From NCBI RefSeq assembly GCF_001889605.1, contig NZ_CP018171.1, positions 1,240,001 through 1,304,000 of the forward strand: a DNA stretch of 64,000 nt, read 5' to 3'. This DNA comes from Aquibium oceanicum. Its GTDB lineage: Bacteria > Pseudomonadota > Alphaproteobacteria > Rhizobiales > Rhizobiaceae. Under the pieces are notes generated by a model that searched no databases, was not told where the DNA came from, and saw only the letters and a program-made list of their open reading frames with translations. Below, one piece after another: positions 25,376 through 40,301 of this stretch (position 1 is the stretch's first letter; every line of letters begins with the position of its first letter). The translations under genes were made by a program, and so were the position numbers.

Positions 25376-26623
25376 TTGATCGCGCGGTTCTTCAGCTATA
25401 TCCTGGGTGCGATCGTTCTCAACATCGTCGTGGTGTTGGCGCTGGTCCTGCTGCTCGACTTGCCTCCGCCGGGAAACGGGCGCGCGAAGGGAGCTCAGCC
25501 CTATCTCCTCGAACTCCTGAAGAAGGCGCATGACGAGGGGACGGACGTCACGACACTTCAGCCGGTCGCGATTCCTGGAGATCCGTCGGTCGCGTTCGTC
25601 GTCCGGCAGGTCGCCGCACAGAGCGAAGCCTGCAGCGCGAACCAGACGATCGCGGTCCAGGCAGACGGCGACTGCCTGGTCATCGACATGATCGCACCGA
25701 CGCCGCGGCTGTTTGCACGGATCGAATCGGTCATCCTGCCGCTGGCCATCGGCATCCTCGTCAGCATCCTTGCCGCCATTCTGCTCGCCAAACGCTTCCT
25801 GCAGCCGGTGCAGGTGATCGCCGATGGGCTGGACGAGCTCGCCGCGGGGCGGTTCGACCAGCGTGTCTCGGGTCGATTGACACGATCCGACAGGTCTTTC
25901 CGGAAACTCGGCGCGCTCGTCGACGAGGCATCGGGGCGCCTGCAACGCCTCAACCGGGACCGCGAAAGGCTGTTTCACGACATCTCGCACGAGATCCGCT
26001 CACCGCTTGCCCGTCTGCAGGTCGCGCTCGGGATCGTTCGCAGATCGCCCGCCCGCATCGATGGTCTGCTTCCGCAGCTCGAGGCCGACATCGAAAGAAT
26101 GGACCGGCTGATCGACGAGATTCTGATGCTTGCACGTATCGACGGGAGCAGCCATCAGCCGATGGACTTCGGACCGATCGATCTGCTCGATATCCTCGAC
26201 CCGATCATCGCCGATGCCAATTTCGAGGGTGCCGAGCGTTCGGTCACCTGTCGCTATGAAGGGATAGACGGGATCCACATCGACGGCTCCGCGGAGCTCA
26301 TCTATCGCGCGCTGGAGAACGTCATTCGCAACGCGATGCGGCATACGGACGAGAGCACGGAAGTCGTGGTCGCGGGCAGCGAGGAAGGTGGTACGTATTC
26401 CATCACGGTCCGAGACCATGGACCTGGCGCCGCCGAAGACGACCTGATCCATCTCACCGAGCCATTCTACAGGGCGAACTCGGACACGCGCTCGGGTGCA
26501 GGCCTCGGGCTAGCGATCGCACTCCACGCGACGCATCTGCATCATGGCTCGATTTCCATTTCCAACGAGCCCCACGGCGGGTTGTGTGTCTGCCTCACCC
26601 TGCCAAGAAGGCCAGCTGACTGA
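25376..26623 (+). CDS. Sensor histidine kinase (CpxA-like)
   Basis: A 415-residue membrane kinase. The first helix is residues 3-27 and a periplasmic region of about 85 residues contains two cysteines (SEACSANQTIAVQADGDC). The second helix (VILPLAIGILVSILAAIL) leads into a HAMP linker. His205 lies in the H-box FHDISHEIRSPLARLQ, followed by N-box ENVIRNAMRHT, G1 RDHGPGA and G2 SGAGLGLAIALHATH. The only start is TTG at 25376, five bases after the regulator stop; the frame is open further upstream only because it crosses the regulator gene. The last 74 bases of the gene are part of a 388-bp tandem duplication. Confidence 0.93.
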   Translation: MIARFFSYILGAIVLNIVVVLALVLLLDLPPPGNGRAKGAQPYLLELLKKAHDEGTDVTTLQPVAIPGDPSVAFVVRQVAAQSEACSANQTIAVQADGDCLVIDMIAPTPRLFARIESVILPLAIGILVSILAAILLAKRFLQPVQVIADGLDELAAGRFDQRVSGRLTRSDRSFRKLGALVDEASGRLQRLNRDRERLFHDISHEIRSPLARLQVALGIVRRSPARIDGLLPQLEADIERMDRLIDEILMLARIDGSSHQPMDFGPIDLLDILDPIIADANFEGAERSVTCRYEGIDGIHIDGSAELIYRALENVIRNAMRHTDESTEVVVAGSEEGGTYSITVRDHGPGAAEDDLIHLTEPFYRANSDTRSGAGLGLAIALHATHLHHGSISISNEPHGGLCVCLTLPRRPAD

Positions 26624-26937
26624 AATGCGCCCCCGCGGATGGCGGGATCGAGCATGCCAGACGGCAGGAGTAAGCGTTACGTGGATGAGGAATTTAACCG
26701 AGTGCTTCCAAACGTCTGAGAAGGCACGTGTGCGACCTAGGACAATGGAAAACCGTTCGGGAATGCGAATTAGCCTGCCAGTGGCGCGGCAGGTTACCGC
26801 TGGCAAAAACGTATGTTCGCTTCCGGCGTCTCCTCGCCCGAAAGCAGTCGGTCGGCAAAGCGCCCCAAATCGCTAAGGACTCGTTGGCCGAGCGTCGGAT
26901 TTCTCACGTTCTCTGCCAGAACCCGACAGTCAGCAGA
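26550..26937. repeat. Tandem direct repeat, copy 1 (388 bp)
   Basis: This unit starts inside the 3' end of the histidine-kinase gene and runs through apparently non-coding sequence. It is followed head-to-tail by a second copy that differs, as far as I can read, only by one A in a poly-A run (five here, four in copy 2, near 26812). Such identity means a very recent duplication. No convincing gene lies in the part beyond the kinase stop. Confidence 0.95.
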
Positions 26938-27324
26938 CGATTTCCATTTCCAACGAGCCCCACGGCGGGTTGTGTGTCTGCCTCACCCTGCCAAGAAGGC
27001 CAGCTGACTGAAATGCGCCCCCGCGGATGGCGGGATCGAGCATGCCAGACGGCAGGAGTAAGCGTTACGTGGATGAGGAATTTAACCGAGTGCTTCCAAA
27101 CGTCTGAGAAGGCACGTGTGCGACCTAGGACAATGGAAAACCGTTCGGGAATGCGAATTAGCCTGCCAGTGGCGCGGCAGGTTACCGCTGGCAAAACGTA
27201 TGTTCGCTTCCGGCGTCTCCTCGCCCGAAAGCAGTCGGTCGGCAAAGCGCCCCAAATCGCTAAGGACTCGTTGGCCGAGCGTCGGATTTCTCACGTTCTC
27301 TGCCAGAACCCGACAGTCAGCAGA
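26938..27324. repeat. Tandem direct repeat, copy 2 (387 bp)
   Basis: This is the second copy of the 26550-26937 unit. It carries an orphaned last 74 bases of the kinase gene and ends at CAGCAGA (27318-27324), one or two bases before the inferred left end of the IS1111-type element. The coincidence of repeat end and insertion-element end suggests that the element's insertion or a replication event at its edge made the duplication. Confidence 0.95.
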
Positions 27325-27390
27325 TGATGCGGTGGACGGCTCTCCTCCCTCCGTGCGGTATGATGGCGGGATTAGAGCTGGAGGAGCACC

Positions 27391-29030: not shown

Positions 29031-29050
29031 GGTGACGTTGCCCCCAAGTT

Positions 29051-29980
29051 CTATCCAGTTTTGAGTTCGTTTCCGGCGGTGGTTTTGCCCTGCTGGGCGT
29101 GTGAGGCGGCGGGCACTTGCGCGCAGCTGTTGGCATGGCGCAGCGCGAGCGACCGTCGCGGGATGAAGGTTCTGGCGAACTCGTCCGGCGTCTGCCAGGA
29201 GATCTGGGAATGCGGCCGGGCGGTGTTATAGTCAGCGAGCCACACGGCGGTTGCCATGCGCGCCTGTGCCAGCGAGGTGAACAGAGTCTCGTTGAGCAGT
29301 TCGTCCCGTAGGCGGCCGTTGAAGCTTTCGATGAACCCGTTCTGCATCGGCTTGCCGGGTGCGATGTAGTGCCATTCGACACGGTTCTGATCGGCCCAGG
29401 CGAGGATGGCGTTCGAGGTGAACTCGCTGCCATTGTCGCTGACGATCATTCTCGGCCGGCCGCGTTCGGCAACCAGCCGATCGAGTTCGCGGGCGACCCT
29501 CATGCCCGAGAGCGACGTGTCGACGACCAGCGCCAGGCATTCGCGCGTGCAGTCGTCGACGATCGCCAGGATACGGAAGCGACGCCCGTCGGTGAGCTGG
29601 TCCGAGACGAAATCCAGCGACCAGCGCTCGTCGGGACGCAGCGGCACCAGCATCGGCGCCCTGGTTCCGATCGCCCGCTTGCGCCCGCCACGCCGGCGAA
29701 CGGCAAGCTTTTCCTCCCGGTAGAGCCGGAACAGCTTCTTGTGGTTCACGACGAGGCCTTCGCGCCTCAGCATCACGAGGAGACGCCGGTAGCCGAACCG
29801 GCGACGTTCCTGTGCGATCGCCTTCATCCGCTCGCGAACCTCGCCGTCGTCCGGGCGGCTGGTCTCGTAGCGAACCGTCATGCGGCAGCAGCCGATGGCT
29901 TTACACGCCCGCCGTTCGCTCATCCCGAAGGCATCCTTCAGGCGAGCGACAGCTCTCCGCTTGGCCGCGGGCGTCACCAT
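29051..29980 (-). CDS. IS3-family transposase OrfB (copy A)
   Basis: A 309-residue DDE transposase. The N-terminal helix-turn-helix-like part ([39 protein letters not shown]) precedes the rve integrase core with catalytic Asp in [10 protein letters not shown], Asp in [12 protein letters not shown] and Glu in [16 protein letters not shown]. The start at 29980 overlaps the end of orfA by seven bases, as in IS3 elements, where OrfAB is made by a programmed -1 frameshift. Full length; a functional OrfAB fusion is doubtful because orfA is disrupted. Confidence 0.92.
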
Positions 29981-30239
29981 TTCTTTCCCACGAGATCCTT
30001 CAGCGCCGCGTTGTCGAGCATGGCGTCGGCCAGCAAACGCTTCAGTCGCGTGTTCTCGTCCTCCAACGCCTTCAGGCGGCGCGCCTCCGAGACGTCCATT
30101 CCGCCGAAGCGGGCCTTCCAGTTGTAGATCGAGGCGTCGCTGACCCGTGCTTGCGGCACAGGTCGGCGACCGAAACCCCGGCCTCATGCTCCTTCAGAAT
30201 TCCGATGATCTGCTCTTCAGAGAAGCGGCTGCGCTTCAT
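29974..30239 (-). pseudogene. IS3-family transposase OrfA (copy A), frameshifted
   Basis: From ATG at 30239 the frame reads [20 protein letters not shown] and [12 protein letters not shown] and then leaves frame. The remainder, [20 protein letters not shown] to the end KDLVGKKW, is intact in the next frame. The break coincides with the three-C run at 30144-30146 (GGG on the coding strand) where the intact copy B has one more base, so one G was lost. This orfA would need restoration before the element could move on its own. Confidence 0.85.
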
Positions 30240-30305
30240 GTCCTGGTCCTCTCAATGGGCCAGAACGAACTTCAATCTGGATTAGATCGCGGGGGCAACG
30301 TCACC

Positions 30306-30958
30306 CGCAGCATGCCCGCGAAACTCTTCCAGTCCGTCAATGCCGCGCGACTTGTTACCTTCGGCGTGACGAGTGCACCGCGAAGACCAAATGTCGGATC
30401 GTTGCTCGCCTTCGAAACGGCAATGGCATAGCGGAACACCTGACCGATTGTCGCGCGCAGCCGACGAGCGGTCTCATAGTTGCCGATTCCCTCGACTCTG
30501 CGCAGGGGAACAAGGATGTCGGCGGCCGTGATATCCGCTATCGGCCGCTTCCCCAGATCGGAAGCCGCAAGGCCTAGGAGCCAACGCTTCTTCGTCAGGG
30601 TGGCGTCCGCCTTGCCTTCGCGTTGGATCTTCTTCAGGTACTCGTCCGCGATCGTTTGAAAAGTGTCTTCGGTAGCCGCACGTGTTGCGATCTTCTCCGC
30701 CTTGGCATGCGCGGACGGATCAAAGCCGGAAGCCAGTAGCCGTTTGGCCGTATCTCGTCTGGCGCGCGCTTCGACTAGAGATACAGCCGGATAGGTGCCC
30801 AGCGCCAAAAGCTTTTGCTTGCCGCCATAGCGATAGGCGAGCCGCCAGAGCTTCGAGCCTTGCGGCGTCACCTGCACGAAGAGGCCGCCGCCATCGCTGT
30901 ACTTCTTGGTGGACTGGAACGGCTTTATCGCCCTCAGCTGCGTATCCGTAAGTGGCAT
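30306..30958 (-). pseudogene. Tyrosine integrase (P4 type), C-terminus lost to an IS3 element
   Basis: The first about 215 residues of a P4-like integrase. The DUF4102 arm-binding domain (MPLTDTQLRAIKPFQSTKKY, KLWRLAYRYGGKQKLLALGTYP) is followed by the core-binding helical domain (DTFQTIADEYLKKIQREGKA). The frame enters the IS3 right end at 30305 and stops at 30272, so the catalytic domain with R-H-R-Y is gone. The gene starts 185 bp from the 3' end of tRNA-Leu and points away from it, the usual place for an integrase of a tRNA-targeted island. It cannot be active. Confidence 0.9.
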
Positions 30959-31142: not shown

Positions 31143-31227
31143 TGGTGCCCAGGAGAGGACTCGAACCTCCACGCCTTGCGGCACACGGACCTGAACCGTG
31201 CGCGTCTACCAATTCCGCCACCTGGGC
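31143..31227 (-). tRNA. tRNA-Leu (anticodon CAG), CCA encoded
   Basis: The acceptor stem GCCCAGG pairs with CCTGGGC at the other end. The D region GGCGGAATTGGTAGAC, the long class II variable arm, and the T loop GGTTCGAGTCC are all present. The anticodon loop reads TTCAGGT, giving CAG. The 85-nt length including CCA is right for a leucine tRNA. The 3' end faces the truncated integrase at 30306-30958, making it an integration target. Confidence 0.95.
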
Positions 31228-33843: not shown

Positions 33844-33870
33844 AGAGCATGAACATGGGAAAATGTGAAA

Positions 33871-33914
33871 TGGCGCACCCGACAGGATTCGAACCTGTGA
33901 CCTCTGCCTTCGGA
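33871..33914 (-). repeat. att copy: 44-bp duplicate of the tRNA-Arg 3' end (far side of the island)
   Basis: Forty-four bases identical to 39867-39910, the 3' part of tRNA-Arg(CCG) from CCA through T arm and variable loop into the anticodon stem, in the same orientation. After 33914 the sequences diverge (CGGCAG versus GGGCAG and then unrelated). It is the crossover repeat left by site-specific integration and marks the far end of the 6-kb island. Confidence 0.93.
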
Positions 33915-34277
33915 CGGCAGCTTTACCCTGGTTTACCCTTATCTAAGCCGGGCAAATTCGTGGAAAACGCCATTTCGCGGTCGGTTAGCACGAGTAGGGG
34001 TACCCTGCTCCCGACCCCTAGTCAACGTGATCCGATCAAGACCATCGCTCGATTGGCACGAGATTGGCACCCGCACTGGCCTTGAAGGGGTGCAACGGGG
34101 GCGACTCGCATTCCGTCTGTGTTAGATACGTGCGCGAAAAAATTCGTCGCCCTCGTGGTCCGAAAGTTGATGCTTACGTCAATCTGAGATTTCAATAAGA
34201 GCCAAGCCATCGAAGGGCTGACGGTGTAGGCCAATATCGGCTATGCACGGTCGAGAATCAGGCATGGGGGACTATCG
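33915..34277. other. Left non-coding end of the tRNA-Arg island
   Basis: The 363 bases between the att repeat and the nuclease-methylase gene hold no convincing gene. A short motif, TTGGCACGAGATTGGCAC, at 34053-34070 recurs with one mismatch near the other end of the island (39780-39797) and is listed separately. The rest is unremarkable. A promoter for the RM operon must lie here; an AT-richer stretch just before 34278 is the likely place. Confidence 0.5.
34053..34070 (+). repeat. Candidate integrase arm-type site, left
   Basis: TTGGCACGAGATTGGCAC contains two TTGGCAC units 11 bp apart, about one helical turn. The same 18-mer with one mismatch occurs at 39780-39797, just upstream of the integrase start. 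Short direct repeats near both ends of an element, outside the crossover, are typical of arm sites bound by the integrase N-terminal domain. Confidence 0.6.
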
Positions 34278-36233
34278 ATGAACGTCAGGCCGGTACCGAC
34301 CGCAGTAATCGTTCAACAGGGCAAACTCCTTGACTTTATCGATGGCCTGACGCAGCGTAATGAGACGCCCGAGGAATACGTCCGTCAAGAAATCGCAAAG
34401 TCGCTCGTCCGCGAATACGGATACCAGAGAGCAGAAATAGCGGTCGAATTCACTCTGAACCTCGGATCACGGAAGCCTCGTGCTGATCTGGTGATCTTCA
34501 ATCCTGATGACCTCCATAATCAGGACAGAGCCCGACTTATTATTGAGTGTAAGTCGCAGAAAGTAAAATCCAGCGACCGCACTGACGGCGTCGGCCAGCT
34601 CAAGAGCTATATGGCTGCGTGTCCTAACGTTGGCTACGGGATGTGGACCAACGGCTTAGAACGATTCTGCTACCGGCGCGTGAACAAGGACGGCGGTGTT
34701 TCCTTCGACGAAATCCCGGACATACCAAGTAAGGGGAGAAGCGAGGATGAGGTCGAGAGACCTCGATTCGATCAGCTCAAGGCGGCTTCTTCAGACGCTC
34801 TCCTTTTCGCCTTCCGGCGCTGCCACAACTATATCGCCGGAAACCAAGGACTACAGAAATCCGAGGCATTTTGGGAACTGCTAAAAATCATCTTCTGCAA
34901 GATCCATGACGAACGCAGTTCAAACGAAGTGGAGTTCTTCGCAACGTCGAAAGAACGTCACAACATGAATGGCCAGTCCAAGGTCATAAGGCGAGTGGGA
35001 AAACTTTTCGAGGATGTTAAGTCCGAGTACAGCACAATTTTTCGCGAGAATGAGGAAATAGTTCTAACGCCGGAAGTTTTGTCATATATCGTTACGCAGC
35101 TGCAGATGTACTCTCTTTTAGAGAGTGACATTGACGTGAAAGGGCGTGCATACGAGGAAATCGTAGGGTCGAATCTTCGGGGCGATCGTGGAGAGTTCTT
35201 CACGCCGCGCAACATCTGTCAGATGGCAGTGACGATGCTTGACCCTGGCGAGCGTCACATCGTCATGGACCCAGCTTGCGGAACAGGCGGCTTCCTGATC
35301 ACAGCAATGAACTACGTGATCGACAAAATTAGGGAAACCGAGATCGACAAGTGGGGCGGCAACGTCGAACGCGCTGAAACAGCAATCCGCGCCCGCGTTC
35401 AGCGGTTCGCCCAAGCGTACATCATCGGGACCGACCTGAATCCCCACCTGGTCAAAGCCTCTAAGATGAACATGGTCATGAACAATGACGGCGCTGGTGG
35501 TCTCTTTCAGGCTAACTCACTCCAATCCCCGGCTCGCTGGGACGATGGACTTCGCAGCCGGCAGGTCATGGGGCAGATCGACCTGCTCTTCACAAACCCG
35601 CCGTTCGGCTCTAAGATTCCCATCGACGATCCGGTAATCCTTGAATCATACGACTTAGGTCACGCGTGGACCTACGACGCCAAGACCGACAAGTGGACAA
35701 TGCGCAACGACGTGCAAAAGTCCCAGCCTCCGGAAATCCTTTTCATCGAACGCTGCGTCCGCCTACTGAAGCCGGGTACAGGGCGCTGTGCAATAGTTCT
35801 ACCAGATGGCATCCTTGGCTCGCCGGGGGCAGGCTACGTACGCGAATGGATTCTGAAGCACACCCGCGTGCTTGCTAGTATCGATCTCCACCCCGACACT
35901 TTCCAGCCGCATGTTTCGGTTCAGACCAGCGTTCTTGTTCTTCAGCGCAAGACACAGGAGGAGATTTCTGTCGAAGCGGCGGCGGGTCGGTTCAATGACT
36001 ACCAAGTGTTTATGGCCGTCGCGAACCATATCGGGCACGACAAGCGGGGCAACATAACCTACGTCCGCGACCGGACGGGCAACGAAATTGTCGAGGAGAT
36101 CGAAGAGCAGACCAAAGAGTACGAAGACGGCAAGCCTGTCTACAAGCGCCAGCGCACACAGAAGAAGGTTATCGACGACAACACCCTCCAAATTGCACAG
36201 GCTTTTAGAACATGGCTGTCAGAGCAAGATTAG
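34278..36233 (+). CDS. Restriction nuclease-adenine methyltransferase fusion (HSDR_N + N6_Mtase; BcgI-A-like)
   Basis: A 651-residue fusion. Residues 30-135 form a PD-(D/E)xK nuclease of the HsdR N-terminal type: Glu57 in AVEF, Asp70 in PRADLVIF, then the E-x-K pair Glu90/Lys92 in RLIIECKSQ, and Q107/Y111 in GQLKSYMA. A helical linker leads to the type I-style N6-adenine methyltransferase: GEFFTPRNICQMAV near 305, SAM motif I DPACGTGG at 331-338, and catalytic motif IV NPPF at 440-443. No helicase motifs and no separate hsdR are present. The methylase and the specificity subunit downstream overlap by 22 bases. Nuclease plus methylase in one chain with a separate S subunit is the BcgI (type IIB/IIG) arrangement; this is inference. 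Confidence 0.9.
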   Translation: MNVRPVPTAVIVQQGKLLDFIDGLTQRNETPEEYVRQEIAKSLVREYGYQRAEIAVEFTLNLGSRKPRADLVIFNPDDLHNQDRARLIIECKSQKVKSSDRTDGVGQLKSYMAACPNVGYGMWTNGLERFCYRRVNKDGGVSFDEIPDIPSKGRSEDEVERPRFDQLKAASSDALLFAFRRCHNYIAGNQGLQKSEAFWELLKIIFCKIHDERSSNEVEFFATSKERHNMNGQSKVIRRVGKLFEDVKSEYSTIFRENEEIVLTPEVLSYIVTQLQMYSLLESDIDVKGRAYEEIVGSNLRGDRGEFFTPRNICQMAVTMLDPGERHIVMDPACGTGGFLITAMNYVIDKIRETEIDKWGGNVERAETAIRARVQRFAQAYIIGTDLNPHLVKASKMNMVMNNDGAGGLFQANSLQSPARWDDGLRSRQVMGQIDLLFTNPPFGSKIPIDDPVILESYDLGHAWTYDAKTDKWTMRNDVQKSQPPEILFIERCVRLLKPGTGRCAIVLPDGILGSPGAGYVREWILKHTRVLASIDLHPDTFQPHVSVQTSVLVLQRKTQEEISVEAAAGRFNDYQVFMAVANHIGHDKRGNITYVRDRTGNEIVEEIEEQTKEYEDGKPVYKRQRTQKKVIDDNTLQIAQAFRTWLSEQD

Positions 36234-37675
36234 CGCCTCCTCGTGAAGTCAGACAGCAATGGGACTGGCATAGGGTACAGTCGACATCGCTGCCCGCGTC
36301 CATGCTCTTCGGTGGCGACCGTCGTATGGAGGCAGAGAACTTTTTGGCGTCTGGTTTCGCAACTAGGAGTGCGATTGCCGGCAAACCAACTGGATGGTCG
36401 AGCCTCGTAAGTGTGGCCCGTACATGGCAACCTTCTCGCTTGAAGGGCATACAGGTTTCTGCCGACTACGGGACCCCGTTCCTCGCCGCCACTCAGGTCT
36501 TCGATGTCCGCCCAGTGCCAAGGAAGTGGCTTTCACTGGATCGCACCAGCGACCACGCCCAGCGCCTTGTTACGGAAGGCACCATCCTACTTACCTGTTC
36601 GGGCAGTGTGGGCAGGGCAACGCTTGCTGACGCCAGCATCGCCAATACTCTCATCTCCCACGACCTCCTACGCATCGACGTGAACGATGATGCTCAACGG
36701 GGCTGGGTGTACGCCTATCTCCGAGCACCCACCGTGCGCGCTATGATGACCTCCGCGCAGTACGGGCACATGATTAAGCACCTTGAGATTGGGCACCTTA
36801 ACGCGTTGCCGTTCATTGAGATTCCCGAAGGGAGTAACCTCCAGTTTTCTCGAATGGCAAGAGATGTGGTTAAGTCCCGAAATCGCGCCCATGAACTCGT
36901 GTCAGCTGCGGAGGCGCGATTTGAAGCCGAGATCGGAACCCTACCCGACCTTGGCGACGGCACTGTGGGCTTCAGCGCCCCTTCGCGCGATTTGTTTGGC
37001 TCGGGGCGGCGGCTTGAAGCCCACTATCACAATCCGATCGCACGATCTGCTGACCGGGCGGTGGCGAGCAGCAACAGAAAGCTGGAGCGACTTGCCGACT
37101 TGGTCGAACAAGTATTCATTCCGGGTCGGTTCAAGCACGTCTATGGCCCCGATGGCCTGCCGTATCTCGACAGCGCACAGATTCTCGAAGTTGCTCCAGA
37201 CGTTGAAAAGTACGTACTGTCGTTACAAGGCGAACGCCGAGCTGGCTACCTCGTCGAAGCTGGAACCTTGATGCTGCCTTGCTCGGGGCAACTGCACGGA
37301 ATCATTGGAAGTGTAGTTCTTGCTGGGGAATGGCACGAGAACAAGGTACTGACGAACCACATAATGCGGATTACTCCGAAGCAGAAACCCAGCATTCGGA
37401 TCGGATACCTCCAAGCAGTCTTGAGTCACCCAAAACTAGGACGCCCACGTGTCCTCCGAGGGGCATACGGATCGAGCGTCCCCGAGCTTTCTACTGTTGA
37501 CATTGAGAACCTTGCCGTACCGCGCCTGTCCGCTATTGCCGAAACCGAAATCGCAGATGCGATGGAGGAGGCAGCAACCTTAATGGCCCATGCAAACTCG
37601 GTCGAAGACCGGATTGCGGAGGAGGCCGAACTGATAGTCCGATCCTTCTTGAGCGCGCCAGGAAAGGCGAGATAG
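36212..37675 (+). CDS. Specificity (S) subunit of the restriction-modification system
   Basis: A 487-residue protein with the twofold layout of HsdS. A first target-recognition domain (LKGIQVSADYGTPFLAATQV, TCSGSVGRATLAD) is followed by a helical spacer (SRMARDVVKSRNRAHELVSA). The second target-recognition domain (GPDGLPYLDSAQILEVAPD, MLPCSGQLHGIIGSVVL, RGAYGSSVPELSTVDIENL) is followed by a closing helix (EEAATLMAHANSVEDRIAEE). The start at 36212 lies 22 bases inside the methylase gene, so the two are translationally coupled. It sets which DNA sequence the fusion enzyme methylates and cuts. The recognition site cannot be predicted by eye. Confidence 0.88.
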   Translation: MAVRARLAPPREVRQQWDWHRVQSTSLPASMLFGGDRRMEAENFLASGFATRSAIAGKPTGWSSLVSVARTWQPSRLKGIQVSADYGTPFLAATQVFDVRPVPRKWLSLDRTSDHAQRLVTEGTILLTCSGSVGRATLADASIANTLISHDLLRIDVNDDAQRGWVYAYLRAPTVRAMMTSAQYGHMIKHLEIGHLNALPFIEIPEGSNLQFSRMARDVVKSRNRAHELVSAAEARFEAEIGTLPDLGDGTVGFSAPSRDLFGSGRRLEAHYHNPIARSADRAVASSNRKLERLADLVEQVFIPGRFKHVYGPDGLPYLDSAQILEVAPDVEKYVLSLQGERRAGYLVEAGTLMLPCSGQLHGIIGSVVLAGEWHENKVLTNHIMRITPKQKPSIRIGYLQAVLSHPKLGRPRVLRGAYGSSVPELSTVDIENLAVPRLSAIAETEIADAMEEAATLMAHANSVEDRIAEEAELIVRSFLSAPGKAR

Positions 37676-37714: not shown

Positions 37715-37859
37715 TCAGACCCAGAATGCGATAAGGGTTGCGAGCGCGACGGCCGATAGATAGTTGCGGGCGAGCTTGTCGTAGCGGGTGGCGACACGCC
37801 GGAAGTCCTTCAGCCTGCAAAAGGCTGCCTCTATGCGCCAGCGGCCCTTGTAGCGGACC
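37715..37859 (-). pseudogene. IS5-family transposase, C-terminal fragment
   Basis: The last 47 codons of an IS5-type transposase: RIEAAFCRLKDFRRVATRYD and LARNYLSAVALATLIAFWV. This carries the catalytic Glu region and the usual ATRYD motif. The rest of the gene would lie at higher coordinates but is cut off by the left inverted repeat of the IS3 element at 37860. Confidence 0.8.
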
Positions 37860-37925
37860 TGACCTGCCACTGAGTTTTTCCTCCACCTGGAGTTAGAGTC
37901 CGGCTCTCGATCGAAGGACGGACAG

Positions 37926-38192
37926 ATGAAGCGAAAGCGATTTACGGAAGAGCAGATCATCGGGGTTCTACGCGAGCACGAGGCGGGTGCGAAGGCAGGT
38001 GACCTGGCCCGCAAGCACGGGGTCTCTGAGGCGACGCTGTATAACTGGAAGGCGAAGTATGGCGGCATGGACGTGTCCGACGCCAAGCGCCTGAGGGCTT
38101 TGGAAGACGAGAACGGGAGGCTGAAGAACCTGCTCGCCGAGCAGATGCTGGAAGCCTCGGCCCTTCGCGAGCTCCTGTCAAAAAAATGGTAG
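37926..38192 (+). CDS. IS3-family transposase OrfA (copy B)
   Basis: An 88-residue protein: the helix-turn-helix ([40 protein letters not shown]) is followed by a leucine zipper ([20 protein letters not shown]) and ends LLSKKW. The AAAAAAT run at 38180-38188, just before the stop, is the usual slippery site for the -1 frameshift that makes OrfAB. It overlaps orfB by seven bases. Confidence 0.93.
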
Positions 38193-39115
38193 GGCCCGCC
38201 GCCAAGCGCGAAGCCGTCGCGCATCTGCAGGCCGTCATGGGTCTGTCGGAGCGTCGGGCCTGTTCCATCGTCGGTGCCGATCGCACGATGATCCGCTACC
38301 AGTCGTGCCGGGCGCCGGAGACCGAACTGCGCGGCCGGCTGCGCGATCTCGCCAACGAGCGCCGGCGTTTCGGCTATCGGCGCCTGTTCATCCTGCTGCG
38401 GCGCGAGGGCGAGCCATCAGGGATCAACCGCATCTATCGGCTCTACCGCGAGGAGGGGCTGACAGTGCGCAAGCGCCGGGCGCGGCGACGCGCGGTGGGC
38501 ACGCGGGCGCCGATCCTGGTCGAGGCGAGGCCGAACGCGCGTTGGTCGCTGGACTTCGTGCACGACCAGTTTGCCTGCGGGCGGCGGTTCCGCGTGCTCA
38601 ACATCGTCGACGACGTGACCCGCGAATGCCTGGGCGCCATCCCCGACACGTCGATCTCCGGTCGTCGGGTGGCCCGTGAGCTGACCGATCTGATCAGCCG
38701 TCGCGGCAAGCCGGACATGATCGTTTCCGACCACGGCACGGAGTTCACCTCGAACGCGATCCTCGCCTGGTCGAAGGATCATCGCGTCGAATGGCACTAC
38801 ATCGCGCCGGGCAAGCCCATGCAAAACGGTTACGTCGAATCCTTCAACGGCCGGATGCGCGACGAACTCCTGAACGAGAGCCTGTTCTTCGGCCTCGACC
38901 ACGCCCGCAACGCCATCGCCGAGTGGCGGCAGGACTTCAACTCTGCGAGACCTCATTCCTCGCTCGGATACCAGACCCCGGCGGCCTTCGCCGGAACTCT
39001 CGCCGCAACCGCCTCCGACGCTTCGCTCGATAAGGGCTTCGCGTCTCCACCGGTTGCTCGAACCGCGCCCTACGGCGTAACAGAAACGGCCAAGGCTCTA
39101 ACCGCCGCTGGATGA
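38186..39115 (+). CDS. IS3-family transposase OrfB (copy B)
   Basis: A 309-residue DDE transposase of the same length as copy A but clearly divergent in sequence. The catalytic residues are Asp in [10 protein letters not shown], Asp in [12 protein letters not shown] and Glu in [16 protein letters not shown]. The N-terminal part has [20 protein letters not shown] and [18 protein letters not shown]. It is intact and probably expressed as OrfAB. Its stop lies five bases before the right inverted repeat. Confidence 0.94.
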
Positions 39116-39133
39116 AAGTTCAGTGGCAGGTCA

Positions 39134-39765
39134 AGGTCGGCACACCGCATGTTGAGAAGTTCACCGCGCCGCATGCCAGTTTCGATAGCCAACCGGATAC
39201 CCGGTTCCAGCCACTTGGTCCGGCCTTCCGCACAAGCGGCTAGGAGCGCCGCTAGCTCGTCTGCGCGAAGCCGTCTGTTGCGTCCGGTAGCGGCCTTGGG
39301 CTTGCGGACGTTGGCGAGAGGGTTCGCCTGCAAGGGTATGTCCCATTCTCGCCGCGCGACCTCAAACACAGTGCGCAACAGGCCCAACTCCCGTATGACG
39401 GTCCCCGCCTCGACCTCTCCAAGCCGCTTGTCTCTGTGCCGGGTGAATGCCTGTGGCGTGATCCGCGCCAAGGACAGCTTGGTCCAGTCGTAGCGTAGGA
39501 ATACCTCTATCCGCTTGGCTTCCGACGCATGACCGCGCTTGCCCGGCGTCACGTCCCGTACATAGCGACGCAATAGGTCAGCTACGGTTGTGCGCTCCAA
39601 GCTTGAAGGGTCGTAAGCAAGCCCGGTACGGTCCAGCTCTTGTTCGGTCTGCCGTATCCAGCGCAGCGCGTCGGCACGGTTGATGAAGTTCTTTGACCGG
39701 GGGGCGTGTCCGATACGTCGCACACGGGCCTGCCACTTGTCGTTTCGTCTCTGTAGGGAAGCCAT
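39134..39765 (-). pseudogene. Tyrosine integrase of the tRNA-Arg island, catalytic end lost to IS3
   Basis: About 211 residues survive. They comprise an N-terminal arm-binding segment (MASLQRRNDKWQARVRRIGH), the SAM-like core-binding domain (TVADLLRRYVRDVTPGKRGH), and the start of the catalytic domain with the first Arg in IETGMRRGELLNMRCADLDL. The H-x-x-R and Tyr boxes are missing, because the frame runs into the IS3 right end at 39133 and stops at 39070. The ATG at 39765 is preferred to upstream starts. The gene starts 102 bp from the tRNA-Arg 3' end and points inward, as expected for this island's own integrase. Confidence 0.9.
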
Positions 39766-39779
39766 GAAAAGTCCTTCAG

Positions 39780-39797
39780 TTGGCACCAGATTGGCAC
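39780..39797 (+). repeat. Candidate integrase arm-type site, right
   Basis: TTGGCACCAGATTGGCAC is 17/18 identical to 34053-34070 at the other end of the island and in the same orientation. It lies between the integrase start and the tRNA-Arg att repeat. Confidence 0.6.
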
Positions 39798-39866
39798 CGA
39801 CTGCGAGTTGGACTATTTCCACCGTTAGGAGGCCGGCTCTAAACCCTTGCATTTCAAGAGCTTAAG

Positions 39867-39943
39867 TGGCGCACCCGACAGGATTCGAACCTGTGACCTC
39901 TGCCTTCGGAGGGCAGCACTCTATCCAGCTGAGCTACGGGTGC
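39867..39943 (-). tRNA. tRNA-Arg (anticodon CCG), CCA encoded
   Basis: The acceptor stem GCACCCG/CGGGTGC, D arm AGCTCAGCTGGATAG, anticodon stem CTGCC/GGCAG with loop CTCCGAA (anticodon CCG), and T arm CACAGGTTCGAATCCTGTC are all present. The 77 nt include CCA. The 3' 44 bases are repeated at 33871-33914, so this is the reconstituted gene after island insertion. Confidence 0.96.
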
Positions 39944-40301
39944 CCGGCCGCGGCTATTATTCCGCAGCTTGGGACGTGCCGGATGAACCGACGCGGCATA
40001 GGTGCTTCATAACCGATGCCTTGCCGCGCATCAACTGGCGAATGCGCGGCAAGGGCAGCGCGGCCCTCCTCTGGCAGAAGTCACAGGTTCGAATCCTGTC
40101 GAGTGCGCGAGTGGGGGGGTGTGCCATGCGGCCACTGCGCCTCGCCCCTAGTTCAAATCTACGGAATGGCCACTCCCGATTGGTCAAATTCACCTGAAAT
40201 CAATGTGAATGCGACGACCTCAAAGACGCTGATCCTCGGCCGGAAGCCCCACGTAAGCAGTAGCGTCTCATCCGGGACGACATCAACCGAAGGAGGATCA
40301 C
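39944..40301. other. Non-coding region with a long hairpin and a third tRNA-like remnant
   Basis: No gene is seen between tRNA-Arg and the fasciclin gene. A 13-bp perfect stem, CCTTGCCGCGCAT / ATGCGCGGCAAGG, at 40019-40031 and 40042-40054 has a 10-base loop. A copy of the tRNA-Arg 3' region in inverted orientation follows at 40073-40110 (listed separately). A run of seven G at 40113-40119 adjoins it. Confidence 0.6.
40073..40110 (+). repeat. Third, inverted copy of the tRNA-Arg 3' end
   Basis: The stretch starting GGCAGAAGTCACAGGTTCG matches the sense strand of tRNA-Arg from the anticodon stem through the T arm to the acceptor 3' side, with about three mismatches in 37 bases. It is on the plus strand, opposite to the intact gene. 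The 5' half of a tRNA is not present. It is probably an attachment-site scar of another element or a decayed tRNA. Confidence 0.75.

Follow-up and report, generated by a model that had tools for sequence, protein, structure and literature searches.

We analyzed a 64,000-nucleotide (nt) stretch of the Aquibium oceanicum genome (contig NZ_CP018171.1, positions 1,240,001 to 1,304,000), referred to here as the window, with a focus on two adjacent genes at window positions 34278 to 37675. Both genes are uninterrupted reading frames on the same strand. The first encodes a restriction-modification (RM) chain in which a nuclease is fused to a methylase, and the second encodes a specificity (S) subunit with two target recognition domains (TRDs); the RM gene and its relatives are called M where loci are compared. 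The features of the pair, with the evidence for each, are as follows.

34278..36233, + strand: RM gene, 651 amino acids (aa), with N-terminal nuclease, helical connector, and N6-adenine methylase (open reading frame (ORF), Pfam, NCBIfam, predicted model, fold search)
34368..34727, + strand: HSDR_N_2 nuclease domain, residues 31-150 (Pfam, 94 bits)
34485-34487, 34545-34547, 34551-34553, 34596-34598, and 34608-34610, + strand: codons of nuclease residues D70, E90, K92, Q107, and Y111, respectively (invariant in the alignment)
35127..36110, + strand: N6_Mtase domain, residues 284-611 (Pfam, 112 bits)
35268-35291 and 35595-35606, + strand: methylase motifs DPACGTGG and NPPF, respectively (sequence and alignment)
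36212..36233, + strand: overlap of the RM and S genes, 22 nt (ORF coordinates)
36212..37675, + strand: S gene, 487 aa, specificity subunit related to MAD5 (ORF, NCBIfam, predicted model, fold search)
36293..36826, + strand: TRD1, about residues 28-205 (predicted model; approximate boundaries)
36833..36934, + strand: long helix CR1, residues 208-241 (predicted model)
36977..37525, + strand: TRD2, about residues 256-438, swapped among relatives (predicted model; approximate boundaries)
37532..37654, + strand: long helix CR2, residues 441-481 (predicted model)

An initial annotation of this DNA had proposed that the 651-aa chain joins a PD-(D/E)xK nuclease (D70, E90, K92, Q107, and Y111) to an adenine methylase, that an S subunit with two recognition domains overlaps it by 22 nt, and that no motor or hsdR gene lies beside the pair. 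The Pfam matches to HSDR_N_2 and N6_Mtase bear out the fusion and place the nuclease in the HsdR type. The S chain has zero Pfam matches at E ≤ 0.01; its two recognition domains and the overlap are established by the ORF coordinates, the predicted model, and the matches to solved S subunits. By Pfam, the RM chain has no HsdM_N domain, neither chain has a translocase domain, and a scan of eight window proteins surrounding the pair returned no HsdR or helicase domain.

Structures were predicted chain by chain. The RM model (44-row alignment, predicted local distance difference test (pLDDT) score of 85.0) consists of the nuclease, the helical connector, the methylase, and a terminal helix at residues 636-650. 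The S model (53-row alignment, pLDDT 90.6, predicted template modeling (TM) score 0.90) contains two TRDs and two long helices in the order TRD1-CR1-TRD2-CR2. Among solved structures in the PDB, the best fold matches of the RM chain were three entries of BsaXI (E 5.8e-27 to 4.7e-26, 631-665 columns), with Type I M subunits behind them (E 1.7e-17 and weaker). The S chain likewise matched the BsaXI S subunit best (E 1.7e-15), followed by S subunits of PacII and other Type I systems.

To follow the nuclease across relatives, we used 80 genome loci, the best 80 of 291 found by a protein scan of the genome collection; these loci are skewed to near relatives, with the best segment 47-84% identical. 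The main alignment had 70 rows (the window and 69 of the 80 loci), and an extended alignment of 87 rows added 13 viral loci, one phage, two plasmids, and one row from genome G526. Of 17 viral loci, 15 were aligned (L125 and the partial L137 were omitted), and two identical to existing rows were dropped before the count. All five nuclease residues were invariant in both alignments (70/70 and 87/87 rows), and E57 was kept in 86 of the 87 rows. Eleven genome loci fell outside the alignment on account of short, split, or missing ORF calls; nine of them span all five residues and keep them all, and the other two, which begin only past K92, retain Q107 and Y111. Altogether, the window and 78/78 genome loci covering the five residues retain all of them, and the loss of nuclease residues that the initial annotation had named as evidence against its reading was not seen in the pair's family. 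The methylase NPPF motif was conserved to a similar degree, with N440, P441, and F443 present in 70/70 rows and P442 in 69/70. The ratio of nonsynonymous to synonymous divergence (dN/dS) was 0.14 for the nuclease, 0.09 for the connector, and 0.05 for the methylase between L013 and L035, which was the only pair with unsaturated silent sites; five other pairs were saturated or too close. In a separate comparison, the M genes of L008 and L009 encode proteins that are 99% identical, with a synonymous divergence (dS) of 0.05-0.09 in the nuclease and connector and 0.46 in the methylase part. Because dS differs between parts of the gene, this suggests recombination within M.

The two genes are coupled. 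An S-like ORF, partial or split in some cases, lies after M in 73 of the 80 loci, and in five of the seven loci that have none, the contig ends no more than about 170 nt beyond M. Counting the window, 68 of 73 pairs have overlapping genes, and in 31 the overlap is exactly 22 nt. S also adjoins M in all 17 viral-contig loci, in the phage locus, and in the two plasmid loci examined. No third gene accompanies the pair generally: the next largest neighbor family, which is that of the window's integrase, occurs in nine loci, window included, and the following family in eight. Pfam matches over 137 near neighbors included GmrSD_N (8), phage integrase (4), and resolvase (3). The lineage is widespread, with members in several bacterial phyla, on one archaeal contig, in prophage, and on plasmids, including a Mycobacterium abscessus prophage, a 47-kb Tessaracoccus plasmid, and the 22-kb Skermanella plasmid pSM-4. 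Within the host's own order, a homolog at E ≤ 1e-100 was found in 3 of 297 genomes, own genome included, a patchy occurrence that is as expected of a mobile system.

Specificity appears to turn over while the catalytic chain does not. The M proteins of L008 and L009 are 99.3% identical, whereas their TRD1 segments share 72.9% identity and their TRD2 segments 37.9%; similarly, L007 and L022 are 91.8% identical in M and 33.5% in TRD2. The window S subunit is close to that of L008 in both segments (TRD1 80.0%, TRD2 75.4%) and close to that of L009 in TRD1 only (77.9%, against 36.2% in TRD2). Judged from these identities, recognition domains are exchanged one by one while the catalytic chain stays constant. 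Separate exchange of recognition domains is known for Type I S subunits.

The pair shows these features of Type IIB enzymes: nuclease and methylase in one chain, a separate S subunit with two TRDs and two helices, and no translocase. BcgI, BaeI, CspCI, and NgoAVIII are described as having the plan R~M plus S1~S2 with two RM chains per S (PMC3874165); the window pair has an RM chain and an S chain likewise and would assemble in the same ratio; the likeness to BcgI concerns this subunit plan only and was set by description, not by BcgI sequence. BsaXI shares with the pair the order nuclease-connector-methylase, the separate two-TRD S subunit, and the lack of a translocase, and it is described as an (RM)2S assembly whose catalytic residues are D90, E105, and K107 (PMC11997821). 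In the same source, D90, E105, K107, and E73 of BsaXI are given as four nuclease-domain positions that are inactive as alanine mutants. D70, E90, and K92 of the window chain align with BsaXI D90, E105, and K107 in a phmmer alignment with RM.BsaXI, and BsaXI E73 lies two positions away from the residue that aligns with window E57. The BsaXI RM chain differs in its length of 916 aa, which includes a knob and a paddle as extra parts (PMC11997821), compared to 651 aa in the window, and the identity is about 20%. According to that source, the RM+S group except BsaXI has an EcoKI-like methylase and a lone C-terminal helical tail, and the BcgI nuclease fails to superpose with the others; in its predicted model, the window chain would appear to resemble this non-BsaXI group.

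Several observations weigh against grouping the pair with these enzymes. TM-scores to BsaXI, taken by query length, are modest (0.50-0.54 for RM and 0.39 for S), and the fold matches have a large root-mean-square deviation (9-15 Å) with 14-22% identity. The nuclease stretch taken alone does not match BsaXI significantly (-1.4 bits), and because it scores below zero, the equivalence of D70, E90, and K92 with BsaXI D90, E105, and K107 rests on the shared motif and fold. BsaXI cutting also requires the paddle residues D816 and E823, as described in PMC11997821, and by length the shorter window chain would have no room for a paddle counterpart. The nuclease dN/dS between L013 and L035 is low but roughly threefold the methylase value. 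Finally, the curated family closest in sequence is MAD2/MAD5 rather than any characterized Type IIB enzyme.

Taken with these points, the features open to test support a pair that works like a Type IIB RM+S enzyme, and we put the probability that it is a self-contained, motor-free restriction-modification enzyme of this kind at roughly 0.8. Two RM chains would bind one S chain in an (RM)2S assembly, the two TRDs of S would read a bipartite sequence, and the methylase domains would place N6-methyladenine (m6A) in each half-site of host DNA. At unmodified sites, the N-terminal PD-(D/E)xK domains would cut close by, probably on both sides of the site, with Mg2+ and possibly S-adenosylmethionine but no ATP, which may protect the cell against phage and plasmid DNA. 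The BcgI-like, motor-free interpretation of the initial annotation is thus partly supported: its architecture and proposed mechanism agree with Type IIB enzymes, BsaXI chains being the best folds of both proteins, but the annotation missed the nearest curated family.

A Type I system offers one alternative, in which the pair forms an M2S methylase that borrows an HsdR from elsewhere in the genome for ATP-driven cleavage. Like the pair, Type I systems combine an N6 methylase with a separate two-TRD S subunit; the S fold is HsdS-like, and the pair's nuclease matches the HsdR N-terminal family. They differ from the pair, which has no HsdR, no motor, and no HsdM_N, and whose nuclease is fused to the methylase. 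The genome does contain two SWI2_SNF2/HsdR genes away from the pair, but each has its own HsdM_N-type M, a domain missing from the window M, so that the HsdR partner whose discovery would have counted against the initial annotation did not turn up. One of these clusters (L116) contains HsdM and HsdS. In the other (L115, own genome C1:742000-757000), a RecF/SMC-like AAA ATPase lies between HsdR and HsdM, a serine recombinase is nearby, and no S was recognized among the five proteins scanned. Moreover, no HsdR lies beside the pair in the prophage and 22-kb plasmid stretches shown, and the fused nuclease is invariant, which counts against borrowing because a borrowed HsdR would make this nuclease needless. 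We therefore consider a borrowed motor unlikely.

The remaining alternatives depend on the relation of the pair to MADS (methylation-associated defense system), a complex anti-phage system reportedly described by Maestri et al. 2024. The nearest NCBIfam models are NF047738 MAD2 for M (677 bits, cut-off 720) and NF047740 MAD5 for S (235.8 bits, cut-off 400). The MAD2 model spans nearly all of M and the MAD5 model most of S, and all 44 aligned family members match the MAD2 model. With PADLOC, the best match of M was PDLC03318, "Type II methyltransferase" (516.9 bits in two stretches), compared to 221.6 bits for mad2; PDLC03318 covers M without a family name of its own, and it names the methylase only, with the nuclease not stated. 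PADLOC over the neighbors, among 25 of 67 families listed, gave mad2 as the only mad-named match (2 proteins, best E 4.8e-24). The PADLOC mad3 model, a generic ATPase model with 261 own-genome matches and positive in 14/14 controls, was dropped in favor of the NCBIfam models.

We located MADS loci through MAD3, which exceeded its cut-off in 3 of 398 genomes; the MAD2 proteins of these loci score 1015.9-1031 bits. Nine genomes have a MAD3 match at E ≤ 1e-60, and in six of them MAD3 is below cut-off and no MAD2 match reaches E ≤ 1e-60. The MADS locus L112 reads GmrSD_N protein, MAD2, MAD3, MAD4, MAD5, MAD6, MAD7, and a long further gene, with MAD2 to MAD7 above cut-off. Compared to the window pair, which stands alone, it has in addition the GmrSD_N protein, the MAD3 ATPase, MAD4, the MAD6 kinase with a NERD domain, and MAD7. 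A search for further MAD2 proteins in 369 genomes of the class of genome G267 returned G267 itself only, and a scan of viral contigs with the L112 MAD2 as query found no relative. The resulting sample of six MADS or MADS-like MAD2 proteins includes three from plasmid loci that carry a MAD2-type protein without a MAD2-model score: L117 (MAD5 and MAD6 above cut-off, with an annotated ATPase and kinase), L118 (annotated S and kinase), and L138 (MAD5 above cut-off, with an annotated kinase).

MAD2 is 35-40% identical to the window RM chain and has the same methylase motifs. The methylase residues counted are kept in 6/6 MAD2 proteins, except P332 (5/6; also variable in the pair's family). However, none of the six keeps all five nuclease residues: E90, K92, Q107, and Y111 have given way to various residues in every one of them, E57 has become D, and D70 survives in five. 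In a 42-row tree, the MADS rows and L119 form one clade (99/99) and the nuclease-intact family another (93/92), with four more distant proteins, also nuclease-intact, outside both; the midpoint root serves for drawing only, and L119 and the outer rows have very long branches. L119 itself is an apparently solitary MAD2-like methylase on a Streptomyces plasmid, with its nuclease residues lost and no annotated S, ATPase, or kinase within 12 kb. Nuclease loss in the MADS lineage would be the simplest reading, although the MAD2 proteins are few and the outer branches long.

The MAD2 proteins also bear on the possibility that the pair is a solitary modification module that only methylates, for example in a regulatory role, with a purely structural nuclease domain. 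They indicate that the fold can persist without its catalytic residues. However, once lost, E90, K92, Q107, and Y111 vary between proteins, whereas they are invariant in the pair's family, and TRD swapping at constant M is typical of restriction-modification. A methylation-only role is about as unlikely as a borrowed HsdR.

We also searched for other MADS components around the pair, with the L112 proteins as phmmer queries against the 1147 proteins called in the window and the 80 loci. MAD3, MAD4, MAD6, MAD7, and part of MAD8 returned nothing at E ≤ 1e-5 among these proteins. In the positive control, the MADS locus L113, this search recovered MAD3, MAD6, MAD7, and MAD8 and missed MAD4; because of that miss, the MAD4 negative is uncontrolled. 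MAD1-like proteins were found in 8 of the 80 loci (L008, L009, L010, L013, L052, L053, L054, and L055; E 3.9e-27 to 1.2e-13) and not among the called window proteins. The MAD1-like gene lies near M-S in two distant groups of loci, on the opposite strand in L013 and one gene further on in L054. The GmrSD_N domain was confirmed in L008, in L052, and in the first MADS gene (L112:1649-3319). GmrSD proteins are described as occurring near Type I genes (PMC4619093). A MAD1-like gene together with M-S may represent an intermediate architecture.

Least probable is that the pair is a remnant or stripped form of MADS, that is, a MAD2 and MAD5 with partners elsewhere or a broken system: the full-length matches to NF047738 and NF047740 and the MAD1-like gene of eight loci (though absent from the window) would favor it, but both scores lie under their cut-offs, the score of M is also below those of MAD2 beside MAD3, MAD3 and MAD6 are absent at cut-off from the own genome (22.9 bits vs 420 needed and 54 bits vs 460 needed), no MAD3, MAD6, or MAD7 was found among the called proteins of these loci and the window, and the family keeps the nuclease residues that the six MAD2 proteins have lost and forms a separate clade. 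As far as homology can tell, the pair is related to MADS components but is not a MADS. We lean, somewhat more than evenly, toward a scenario in which this autonomous two-gene lineage shares a direct ancestor with the MADS modification core. In this scenario, an enzyme of this sort would first have gained a MAD1-like GmrSD_N partner, an arrangement that eight relatives still show, and would then have lost its nuclease; with restriction taken over by the ATPase, the kinase, and the other proteins added to it, MADS would have arisen.

The surroundings of the pair include the following features.

33868..33921: left copy of a 54-nt direct repeat corresponding to the 3' end of tRNA-Arg, 96% identical; probable attL of a 6.05-kb island
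37849..39144, + strand: IS3-type element between S and the integrase, with inverted repeats 37849-37878 / 39115-39144 and transposase 38186-39115
39070..39852, - strand: tyrosine integrase, N-terminal part only; the Pfam match ends in the catalytic domain
39864..39917: right repeat copy inside tRNA-Arg(ccg); probable attR
39867-39943, - strand: tRNA-Arg(ccg)

The integrase starts beside tRNA-Arg at 39852 and stops early, at 39070, at the edge of the IS3-type element. M has a guanine-plus-cytosine (GC) content of 53.6% and S of 57.4%, compared to 64.6% in the whole window. Given the repeat at tRNA-Arg, the integrase, and the low GC, the pair most likely belongs to the cargo of a no longer mobile 6-kb island in tRNA-Arg. 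A search for the empty tRNA-Arg site in 41 genomes of the family returned for the most part short tRNA-like sequences and dispersed fragments, without revealing that site.

Other features were noted in the surroundings. A further match to the tRNA-Arg 3' end, 52 nt long (87%) and inverted, lies on the other strand at 40057-40108 (+), 136 nt from the first, and is possibly an old attachment-site remnant or a tRNA fragment. A second truncated tyrosine integrase (30272-30958, - strand; Arm-DNA-bind_3 and Phage_int_M) lies beside tRNA-Leu(cag) (31143-31227, - strand). With them is an IS3-type transposase (29051-30187), flanked by the inverted repeats 29031-29053 / 30283-30305, and the whole may be what is left of another tRNA island. 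At 26550-27328, about 388 bp are repeated head to tail with 99-100% identity.

A literature search on MADS genes, Type IIB enzymes, and the fusion, with the primary MADS paper outside its scope, found no paper on the pair or on nuclease loss in MAD2. What is new here is a member of a known general design, from a family uncharacterized in the literature as far as found, together with a lead on MADS. As a motor-free enzyme, the pair would be a compact two-protein system; its TRDs occur in many natural variants, and methylome sequencing could read the sites that they prefer. A 2026 review lists MADS with the systems whose mechanism of restriction is unknown (PMC12904381). Since the autonomous relatives are nuclease-intact and the MAD2 proteins examined have lost the nuclease, another subunit should do the cutting if MADS cuts DNA. 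The family of the pair is large and autonomous, its specificity is separable, and its contrast with the nuclease-dead MAD2 gives a handle on MADS.

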